Assembly: GCA_013002345.1 (NCBI GenBank)
Contig: JABDKH010000321.1
Span: forward strand, 1-34,199
DNA from: Rhodothermales bacterium
GTDB lineage: Bacteria > Bacteroidota > Rhodothermia > Rhodothermales > JABDKH01
Reading direction: 5' to 3'
DNA length: 34,199 nt
Below, piece by piece: positions 5,397-11,524 of this stretch. Below the pieces are notes generated by a model. It was not told the DNA's origin, searched no databases, and saw only the letters and a list, made by a program, of their open reading frames with translations. Both the position numbers and the translations under genes were made by a program. Positions within the stretch are counted from its first letter, which is position 1; every line of letters begins with the position of its first letter.

Positions 5397-5951
5397 ATGT
5401 TGAATTTGGATTGCGCGGCACGCGCTCGATTCTTTCACCGCACTGTCTTCGGCACGCTGGCGCTTCTGCTCGCGGCTTGTCAGCCTGCTTCCGACAAGAG
5501 TAAGAATGCACCGGCTCCGTCGGCCGAAGAAATCGAGCAGGCCTACGTTGAGGTCGACGACCTTGTCCATCGATTTGGCCGCATGTGGGAAGATGAAGAC
5601 ATGGCCACGTTTGACCAGATCGTGGCGCACGACGAGGACCTCGTGATTATCGGGACTGACGCTGCCGAGCAGATTATTGGATACGATACGTATCGCGAGT
5701 TGAGAGAGCGCCAGTTCGCGTCGTTCGAAAACGTTGAGTTCGATGTTCGCAACCGGATAATCAAGGTCGCCGAGAACGGACGGTCGGCATGGTTTTCAGA
5801 GGAGTTTGATCTCTTCCTGTTGGCACAGGGTAATCCCGTAAGCCTCGAGGGTATGCGCTTGACCGGTGGTCTTGAAAAACGCGACACCAGCTGGGTCATC
5901 GTTCAGCTTCACACATCCGTACCGGTGCCCGGTCAGGCGGCCGAGTACTAG
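5397..5951 (+). CDS. Lipoprotein with SnoaL/NTF2-like fold
   Basis: The 184-residue product has a signal sequence ending in the lipobox LAAC, with the lipidated Cys at residue 28, so it should be anchored to a membrane facing the periplasm. Residues about 45-175 resemble the SnoaL-like/DUF4440 group of the NTF2 superfamily: an N-terminal helix with a Trp (FGRMWEDEDM), then strands ending in GLEKRDTSWVIVQLHTSVPV. These small cone-shaped domains bind or convert varied ligands, so no reaction can be named. A strong ribosome site (GGGGAGGAAGG, 5382-5392) lies just before the ATG at 5397 and fixes the start. The gene follows ctaB by 14 bases and is probably cotranscribed. Confidence 0.82.
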   Translation: MLNLDCAARARFFHRTVFGTLALLLAACQPASDKSKNAPAPSAEEIEQAYVEVDDLVHRFGRMWEDEDMATFDQIVAHDEDLVIIGTDAAEQIIGYDTYRELRERQFASFENVEFDVRNRIIKVAENGRSAWFSEEFDLFLLAQGNPVSLEGMRLTGGLEKRDTSWVIVQLHTSVPVPGQAAEY

Positions 5952-8790: not shown

Positions 8791-9084
8791 GTTGCGGGTC
8801 GGTGCGAATCTGGGCGAGAGTGGACGCGAATAGACGGTATGGCGTCCGATATGTTCTCATGCGGCCCCCCGGACGTATCACATACAAACCGGGCGCAAAT
8901 CCCCTCAAGATGACCGGATACGGCCTGTGCTCGTCGTTAATGAAGGACCGCCGCTGCCGATACTAGGGCAAAATGGCTCCCTATTCATCCGATCAATCGA
9001 TTGTGGGCAAAGAGGTTGCGCCAAAGAGCCGCTGCCCTTCCTCTCTTGATCGCACATCCAGCTGAAGCATTGAGCGGATCCGGC
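8791..9084. promoter_or_regulatory. Divergent intergenic region between MFS gene and sensor kinase
   Basis: This 294-base gap must carry the start signals of both flanking genes. GGACGC (8822-8827) and GCGTCC (8842-8847) form a 6-bp inverted repeat with 14 bases between, 32-57 bases upstream of the MFS start, the position expected for an operator. CAATCGATTG (8994-9003) is a short perfect palindrome nearer the kinase. A TTG at 9001 opens a frame into the kinase, but the ATG at 9085 is preferred. I see no convincing small gene, RNA gene or clear -35/-10 pair. Confidence 0.35.
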
Positions 9085-11061
9085 ATGACACGGAAGCTGA
9101 CTCACGTCGTCTGGAGGCCACTCAGATCGCTACGCGCGAAGCTGACCATCTTCACGTTCGGCCTGATGGCCGTGATCTCGCTCTCGATCTACCTGTTCCT
9201 TCCGACCCGGATGGAAAACCAGGCCGAGAACGCACTTGTCGACAAGGCCTCGAATATCGCCGATATGACCGCCTTCGCGATCGGCGCATCGTCCGATACG
9301 GGAGATCCCGTTCACGTTCCAATCGTTCTGAACGGAGCCGCCCAGGTGGATGACCTTGTGTACGCCTACGTCACCGCATTAGACGGGAGTGTGGTTGCGG
9401 ACTTCAACCGTATGCCAAACATCTACACGGTACCGTATGAGTTCCGCATGCCAGGTGGGGTTTCAGACAATCGCGACATCTTCCGCGCTCGCCGCTCCAT
9501 CATCTCGCGCGGCCGATCGGCCGGAACCCTGCACATGGGCTTCTCGCTCGAGAGCGTCGCCACCATCGCCCGCCGGAGCCGTCTGACAATCGCGATTGCG
9601 AGCATCATGATCTTCGTGATTGGCCTGACGGGCGTGTTCGCTGTGAGCCACATCATCACTGCGCCTCTTCGACAGATTGCCAGCGTAGCCGAAAGGATCT
9701 CGGAAGGCGATTTCGAGGGTAGTCTGGAAATCCAGTCGAATGACGAAATCGGGCGCCTAGCAACCGCATTCAACAAGATGGTGAAGGGCTTGAGGTCCGC
9801 GTACCAACATCTTGAAAGCGCGAATGCGACGCTGGCCTACCACTCGCAGGACTTGCAGTCTGAGATTGCAGAGCGCCGCAAGGCTGAGCAGGCCTCCCGT
9901 ACGAGCGAGGCAAAATTCCGGGCGGTCGTTGAACATGCCACGGACATCGTCGCGGTCTTCGAAACGGACGCTTCCATTAAGTACATGTCACCCGCATGTA
10001 TAAACATGATGGGCGTCACTCCAGAGTCGCTAATCGGAGAAAAGGCTGACCAGTTCGTTCATCCGTCTGATCTGGCTCGATTTACGTCCGCCTTGCTCGG
10101 CAGCCGGCGGGACATCACCGTCGCCATCAATGTCGAGGCGCGGTGGCGTCACGCGAATGGCAAGTGGCGATACCTCGCGTTCCGCGGTCGAAACCTGAGC
10201 GACCTTCCCGGAATCGATGGCATTCTGTTCAACGTGACCGACATCACAGAGGCGAAGCGATTTGAGCGTGAGCTGTTACACGCCAAGGACAGAGCCGAAG
10301 AGATGGTGCGACTGAAGAACAGCTTTCTCGCAAACATGAGTCAAGAGATCCGTACGCGACTTACCGGCATACTGGGGTTCGCTCAGATTCTCAACTCGGA
10401 GATCGATCCGTCGCAGCTGGAGCTCGTTGAACACATCGAGGGTAGCGGTACCCGACTCCTGAACACGCTGAATTCCGTGCTTGATCTGGCTGAGTTGGAG
10501 GCCCAGTCCGTGCGTCCTGAGCTGGAGGCACTGGACGTTGTGAAAGAGATCCGCGAAACGACGAAGCTCATTTCACCACTTGCTCATCTGAAAGGTCTCG
10601 CGTTTCACGTCGACATTCCTGACGAACGAATCTTCGCACAGGCGAATTCGAGTTGCTTGCACCGTGTGATCGTGAACCTGGCCAGCAACGCCGTCAAGTT
10701 CACTGACGAGGGCGAGGTTCGAATCAAGACTACGGCCGACGACCGACACGTTCGCATTGCAGTCGTCGATACGGGCGTCGGCATTTCCGAGGAATTCGTT
10801 CCGCAGCTTTTTGGTGAGTTCACCCAGGAATCGACCGGTAATGCACGAACTCATGAGGGCAGCGGCCTCGGACTGGCCATCACGCGCCGTCTGGTCGACC
10901 TCATGGACGGTGACATCAATGTCCAGAGCGAGAAAGGCCGCGGTAGCCGGTTCGTCGTCACACTGCCCCGGGCGCAGGCTCCGGCTGCAGGTGAAGAAAG
11001 ACCGGACAAATTGCCGGTGCTGCGACCCGTGAAGCTTGGAGGGCGACGCTGGGCCTCGTGA
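9085..11061 (+). CDS. Membrane sensor histidine kinase with HAMP and PAS domains; phospho-accepting His replaced by Gln
   Basis: From the ATG at 9085 the product is 658 residues: helix 1 (20-39), a periplasmic sensor region (about 40-166), helix 2 (167-191), HAMP (about 191-245), a coiled-coil, PAS (about 274-385), dimerisation domain (about 408-475) and an ATPase domain with N box (HRVIVNLASN, Asn535), G1 (DTGVGI, from 562) and G2 (GSGLGLAI, from 592). The H box, normally SHEIRTPL, reads SQEIRTRL, so residue 420 is Gln and the usual Pro is Arg. ATP-binding motifs look intact, but His-Asp signalling should be blocked at this site. No response regulator is adjacent. A TTG at 9001 would add 28 residues; GAGCGGA before 9085 supports the ATG. 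Confidence 0.9.
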   Translation: MTRKLTHVVWRPLRSLRAKLTIFTFGLMAVISLSIYLFLPTRMENQAENALVDKASNIADMTAFAIGASSDTGDPVHVPIVLNGAAQVDDLVYAYVTALDGSVVADFNRMPNIYTVPYEFRMPGGVSDNRDIFRARRSIISRGRSAGTLHMGFSLESVATIARRSRLTIAIASIMIFVIGLTGVFAVSHIITAPLRQIASVAERISEGDFEGSLEIQSNDEIGRLATAFNKMVKGLRSAYQHLESANATLAYHSQDLQSEIAERRKAEQASRTSEAKFRAVVEHATDIVAVFETDASIKYMSPACINMMGVTPESLIGEKADQFVHPSDLARFTSALLGSRRDITVAINVEARWRHANGKWRYLAFRGRNLSDLPGIDGILFNVTDITEAKRFERELLHAKDRAEEMVRLKNSFLANMSQEIRTRLTGILGFAQILNSEIDPSQLELVEHIEGSGTRLLNTLNSVLDLAELEAQSVRPELEALDVVKEIRETTKLISPLAHLKGLAFHVDIPDERIFAQANSSCLHRVIVNLASNAVKFTDEGEVRIKTTADDRHVRIAVVDTGVGISEEFVPQLFGEFTQESTGNARTHEGSGLGLAITRRLVDLMDGDINVQSEKGRGSRFVVTLPRAQAPAAGEERPDKLPVLRPVKLGGRRWAS

Positions 11062-11179
11062 GCCACCGCTATCCCACGCTGTCCAGGTCGCGTCGGCAGG
11101 AACTTTGTGCCTTGCGACGGCTATTCAAAAGCCTTTCGCAAAAATGTTGACAGCGCAGTACACCCTGCACCCCCAAATC

Positions 11180-11524
11180 ATGCCGACCTACGTCTACAAA
11201 AGAGAAGACGGGACCACTTTCGAGCTCGAGCAGCGGATCACAGCGGACTCGCTCACGCACTGCCCCACCACAGGACAGCGAGTGGAACGCGTAATCAGTG
11301 GCGGTACAGGGCTGATCTTTAAGGGATCAGGGTTTTACATCACGGACTACGCCCGGAAGAACGGTTCGGCGCCGACTCCTGGCTCAGAGAAGAATGGGTC
11401 CGAGGCGTCAGAGCAGCCCAGGAAGGAATCAAGCGAAACGGCTTCGAAGAAGGAATCGAAAAAGGAATCGAATGACTCGTCTTCGAAGCCTGATTCGACG
11501 ACCAAACCGAACAAGGCGGACTAG
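11180..11524 (+). CDS. FmdB-like small protein lacking most zinc-ribbon cysteines
   Basis: The 114-residue product starts MPTYVYKREDGTTFEL at the ATG at 11180 and continues to ISGGTGLIFKGSGFYITDY, both hallmarks of the FmdB regulatory-protein family (about 60-110 residues, function poorly known). Typical members carry two CxxC pairs; here the first is replaced by KREDG and the second is reduced to CPTTG, leaving one Cys. Zinc binding is therefore unlikely. The C-terminal half (about 60-114) is low-complexity, rich in Ser, Lys, Glu and Pro, and probably disordered. The frame is open upstream to 11036, but the conserved start supports 11180. It follows the sensor kinase by 118 bases. Confidence 0.82.
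   Translation: MPTYVYKREDGTTFELEQRITADSLTHCPTTGQRVERVISGGTGLIFKGSGFYITDYARKNGSAPTPGSEKNGSEASEQPRKESSETASKKESKKESNDSSSKPDSTTKPNKAD

Follow-up and report, generated by a model that had tools for sequence, protein, structure and literature searches.

A Rhodothermales sensor kinase, orthologous to hybrid histidine kinases, that appears to have lost its phospho-acceptor histidine, H-box proline and receiver domain

The sensor histidine kinase HK1 of a Rhodothermales bacterium is, judged from its sequence and those of its relatives, a former hybrid kinase that appears to have lost the phospho-acceptor histidine, the conserved proline of the H box and the C-terminal receiver (REC) domain in its own lineage. 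The phospho-acceptor histidine is the autophosphorylation site of histidine kinases. With it replaced, neither kinase activity nor phosphotransfer is expected, and the loss of REC leaves the protein without an internal phosphate acceptor. HK1 thus probably no longer passes on phosphate. The reading ranked first, tentatively and at a little less than an even chance, is that HK1 acts as a phospho-silent regulator binding the receiver of another protein; a recently disabled gene is a close second. The window is the whole of a 34,199-nucleotide contig from a draft genome of 381 contigs (G000; contig C321). The features of the locus are as follows:

9085..11061, + strand: coding sequence of HK1, sensor histidine kinase; 658 amino acids from ATG 9085, 686 from TTG 9001
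9139..9201, + strand: first hydrophobic membrane segment, residues ~47-67, read off the translation
9583..9651, + strand: second hydrophobic membrane segment, residues ~195-217, read off the translation
9643..9795, + strand: HAMP domain, residues 215-265 (PF00672, 60 bits)
9928..10260, + strand: PAS domain, residues 310-420 (PF08448/PF08447)
10315..10503, + strand: HisKA (DHp) domain, residues 439-501 (PF00512, 48.9 bits)
10342..10344, + strand: Gln448, codon CAA, at the phospho-acceptor histidine site; His in 5/5 syntenic orthologues
10345..10356, + strand: E449-I-R-T452, retained HExxT positions, from the translation (roles from PMC3510030)
10357..10359, + strand: Arg453, codon CGA, at the conserved proline; Pro in all orthologues
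10645..10647, + strand: Asn549 (D549N), where the homologues always have Asp; the sole private change in 36 invariant CA columns
10654..10974, + strand: HATPase_c (CA) domain, residues 552-658 (PF02518, 100.1 bits)
11046..11179, no strand assigned: site at which the orthologues have the receiver and hydrolase gene; neither is here, and the + strand frames hold no remnant of a receiver
11180..11524, + strand: FmdB-type zinc-ribbon gene, next downstream of HK1 and syntenic (PF09723; synteny)

The open reading frame extends from the TTG (9001..11061, + strand), and the in-frame ATG at 9085 is the likelier start; homology to the orthologues begins at about residue 36 in the TTG numbering. The frame is fully open, without a stop or frameshift. 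The two hydrophobic membrane segments flank the extracytoplasmic sensor. All four domains (HAMP, PAS, HisKA and HATPase_c) exceed their Pfam cut-offs, which bears out the HAMP and PAS domains named in an earlier, sequence-only reading of this DNA. The HisKA score is well above its cut-off of 26.9 bits and below the 63-69 bits of the histidine-bearing orthologues. The H box reads NMSQEIRTRL, with its serine codon at 10339-10341, and the glutamine and arginine codons are as that reading had given them. It had also judged the ATP-binding motifs to be intact. The N (NLASNAVKF), G1 (DTGVGI) and G2 (GSGLGLA) boxes are indeed present, as is the F box (FGEFTQ). Measured against a competent HisKA kinase, HK1 therefore has the HisKA and HATPase_c domains and the ATP-binding boxes, and is missing the phospho-acceptor histidine. 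As had also been claimed, no response regulator adjoins it in the window.

The comparison took in one genome of the genus, that of HK1 itself, and orthologues from five genomes of the same family (G001-G005), in four other genera. These five relatives are 37-56% identical to HK1 and full-length, save the copy on a contig of the Rhodothermia MAG HDS-18 (G001), which is cut at residue 517 by the contig end. As far as the contigs reach, the six genes share the same place, with ctaA, ubiA, rlmN and an MFS gene upstream and fmdB and tpiA downstream; no match to the MFS gene was seen at the locus in G004. HK1 is thus orthologous to a membrane-bound hybrid histidine kinase conserved in the family, with the order sensor-HAMP-PAS-DHp-CA-REC. 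A SnoaL-like gene (5397-5951, + strand) lies between ubiA and rlmN, and among the relatives compared only G001 has a syntenic copy.

The H box is SHEIRTPL in all five syntenic orthologues. As each of them has both His and Pro, the glutamine appears private to the HK1 lineage, and the comparison points to a lineage-specific loss; a novel kind of signalling protein conserved among relatives is not what it shows. The change of the histidine arose after the split from G001. The sequence-only reading had likened HK1 to the pseudokinase DivL, and had advised an alignment to see whether the glutamine is conserved; histidine in all homologues of sister species would have spoken against its interpretation. 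Histidine is what the orthologues of the four sister genera carry. The description of a kinase without its phospho-acceptor stands, and the likeness to DivL as a conserved allosteric pseudokinase is not borne out by this comparison.

The receiver is present in the three orthologues with complete 3′ ends (G002, G005 and G004; Response_reg, 72-81 bits). The contig of G003 stops just where the receiver of its orthologue begins. HK1 terminates with the linker, at the point where the first strand of a receiver would begin. No receiver remnant is detectable past the stop codon; a KPFAKML stretch was considered as a receiver end and rejected, as 29 of 200 shuffles equalled the best match. Neither was a relocated receiver found elsewhere in the genome, where the best match, 45% identical, was dismissed as it is part of another kinase. 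The gene that follows the receiver in the relatives is also missing. In G004 and G005, a beta-lactamase-fold serine hydrolase lies between the kinase and fmdB, split over two frames in the latter genome; the G002 gene after the kinase was read as NagZ-like. The gap from the HK1 stop to the fmdB start is 118 bp (11062-11179) and holds neither a hydrolase nor a NagZ-like gene. A hydrolase homologue (47%) is found on another contig of the same genome, C297. Since the G001 contig ends before the receiver region, the loss of the receiver may predate or postdate that of the histidine. No clear match was found for a piece completing the 3′ half of the G001 orthologue.

The remainder of the catalytic region is well preserved. 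HK1 keeps 35 of 37 DHp columns that are invariant among 14 homologues (residues 424-505), the only changes being H448Q and P453R, and 35 of 36 invariant CA columns, or 70 of 73 in all. Tajima relative-rate tests of HK1 against G001 with five outgroups were flat and not significant, and the branch of HK1 in the tree (0.26) is ordinary for the family. When 80 random substitutions (4% of the gene) were simulated, 9% of the runs had no stop and 10% had three or fewer broken invariant columns. With 120 substitutions, these values fell to 5% and 2%, respectively. Synonymous sites between HK1 and G001 are near saturation (pS 0.69), which ruled out dN/dS as a means of dating the loss. Taken with this divergence, the simulated neutral decay indicates that HK1 has been under constraint for most of its own branch. 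The data fit both a protein still at work in a phospho-silent role and a loss of recent date.

In the HK1 lineage, the receiver was lost together with the gene following it in the relatives, the phospho-acceptor His became Gln, and the Pro five positions further along became Arg. It is proposed that HK1 persists as a phospho-silent sensor dimer, in which the signal- and ATP-dependent shape of the DHp and CA domains binds a receiver domain carried by some other protein. The bound receiver may be sequestered, or it may be dephosphorylated via the retained Thr452, and the outcome of either contact would be a damped pathway. Studies of HisKA kinases have shown that the Glu beside the His serves kinase activity and that a Thr or Asn at position +4 serves phosphatase activity, with the His enhancing the phosphatase reaction without being required for it (PMC3510030). 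As E449 and T452 of the HExxT motif remain, and Thr452 occupies the H+4 position at which dedicated HisKA phosphatases have Thr or Asn, residual phosphatase activity is possible in HK1. Against such a role, DivL, the analogue studied in most depth, is without phosphatase activity (PMC4211667). Further points count against a phospho-silent regulator: the glutamine has been seen in one genome of the genus, no partner response regulator or kinase has been identified, and Pro453Arg may disturb the DHp helix.

The close second is a gene that was disabled recently and is being lost, in which output disappeared with the receiver, selection was relaxed, and the His and Pro mutated to leave a functionless protein. 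Three functional losses in one gene of one lineage fit this account, as does the histidine kept in all five sister-genus orthologues, and as many as ~40-60 neutral substitutions could be reconciled with the open frame and the 70 invariant residues retained. Yet there is neither a stop nor a frameshift, no acceleration of rate is seen and the ATP-binding boxes are intact. The changes in the DHp domain have moreover struck exactly the H and the P as opposed to random conserved sites, a pattern that is partly a selection effect of how the gene was found.

The sequence-only reading had also suggested that HK1 may steer another kinase, which is no more than a possibility. In the specific form of a heterodimer, the CA domain of HK1 would phosphorylate the histidine of a partner, or the inactive half would alter the activity of that partner. 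The intact CA motifs would permit this, the genome encodes kinases with a related sensor part (e.g., on contig C38), and pairs of a pseudokinase and its paralogue have been documented, as for ChrS with HrrS in Corynebacterium (PMC9491836). The arrangement is nevertheless unlikely: HK1 is without a near paralogue, as the most similar DHp domains among the kinases of its own genome are 49-53% identical and none exceeds ~53%, and no complementary kinase with an intact His and a broken CA domain was noticed. Least probable of all is an error of sequencing or assembly, with true codons for His and Pro and the receiver in place. The genome is a draft and both CAA and CGA are one base off a His or a Pro codon. 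An error would nonetheless have to account for two independent substitutions and for a receiver cleanly missing from a locus whose gene order is kept on both sides, and the missing receiver was not recovered from the rest of the genome.

A glutamine in place of the histidine, as in HK1, is rare within the order. Across 114 genomes, the canonical H-box pattern with His gave 651 matches (per-genome counts summed) and the same pattern with Gln gave two; the pattern is strict in that it requires the Pro and misses HK1 itself, and the rate refers to canonical boxes only. The two Gln matches were rejected as further Gln H boxes, as neither lies in a kinase. When the pattern had Asn ahead of the Gln, there were again two matches: a kinase on contig C132 of the same genome as HK1, and its orthologue in G001.

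The C132 kinase (L067, 7898-10606, + strand) is a hybrid kinase of 902 amino acids with the H box NINQEFRKPI. Together with its orthologues (L068/L089, L069-L074, L107, L110 and L111), it forms a separate, well-supported clade that is found in 11 genomes of the order. The histidine is kept in six of the 11 (G002, G004, G009, G101, G102 and G104). It is replaced by Gln in G000 and G001, by Glu in G003, and by Asn in G023 and G010. A tree built from eight of the members places the two with Gln in one clade and the two with Asn in another, and the Glu member stands alone; if His is ancestral, this points to at least three independent losses. Where contigs allow, gene order is shared too, with the kinase gene lying downstream of a sodium-symporter-type gene and upstream of a thioredoxin-like one. 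The dN/dS between G000 and G001 is ~0.07-0.09, with dS near saturation. In L110 and L111 (G102 and G104), the His is kept and the phospho-acceptor Asp of the receiver is apparently lost (LVSAGL vs. LVDLGL/LMDVRL). It seems that in this group the relay has been lost at either end in different lineages. A conserved pseudokinase of the kind envisaged by the sequence-only reading is found in this group, outside the window, which is a stronger case than HK1 with its lineage-private glutamine.

Pseudo-histidine kinases have been described in nature before, DivL among them. Few have been studied in bacteria, and DivL dominates the literature found. The orthologues with and without the histidine at the HK1 locus allow the states before and after the change to be compared: absence of the His goes with absence of the receiver, and the ATP-binding fold is kept. 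With its several independent losses of the His and its purifying selection, the C132 group is the better system for studying the role that a histidine kinase can have once phosphotransfer is gone. It is conceivable, if doubtful, that hybrid kinases of this Rhodothermia family have repeatedly been turned into phospho-silent signalling proteins under selection, with HK1 as one instance and the C132 group as the better supported.

Among known systems, HK1 resembles ordinary hybrid kinases, including its syntenic orthologues, in its place among the genes and in its sensor, HAMP, PAS, DHp and CA domains. The orthologues have the His and the Pro, and those with complete 3′ ends the receiver as well, whereas HK1 is without all three. 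The ethylene receptors of plants that are without the His likewise keep degenerate histidine-kinase cores as signalling modules; they differ from HK1 in being eukaryotic and long conserved, and in signaling through a Raf-like kinase. The DivL protein of Caulobacter, whose structure (4q20) is among the PDB sequence matches of HK1, resembles it in its PAS-DHp-CA order and in having a residue other than His at the phospho-acceptor site, a Tyr in DivL. That substitution is conserved across the alphaproteobacteria, with Ala in one (PMC4211667). Inactive as a kinase and a weak binder of ATP, DivL acts on CckA and binds a phosphorylated receiver (PMC4211667). In contrast, the glutamine of HK1 is private to one lineage, its sister-genus orthologues having kept a phosphorylatable residue, and its ATP boxes look canonical. 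The ChrS pseudokinase variant of Corynebacterium glutamicum resembles HK1 in being catalytically inactive through a recent change. It was inactivated by a frameshift in the CA domain during laboratory evolution and can still matter through a paralogous kinase (PMC9491836). In HK1, by contrast, the CA domain is intact and it is the His that is gone.
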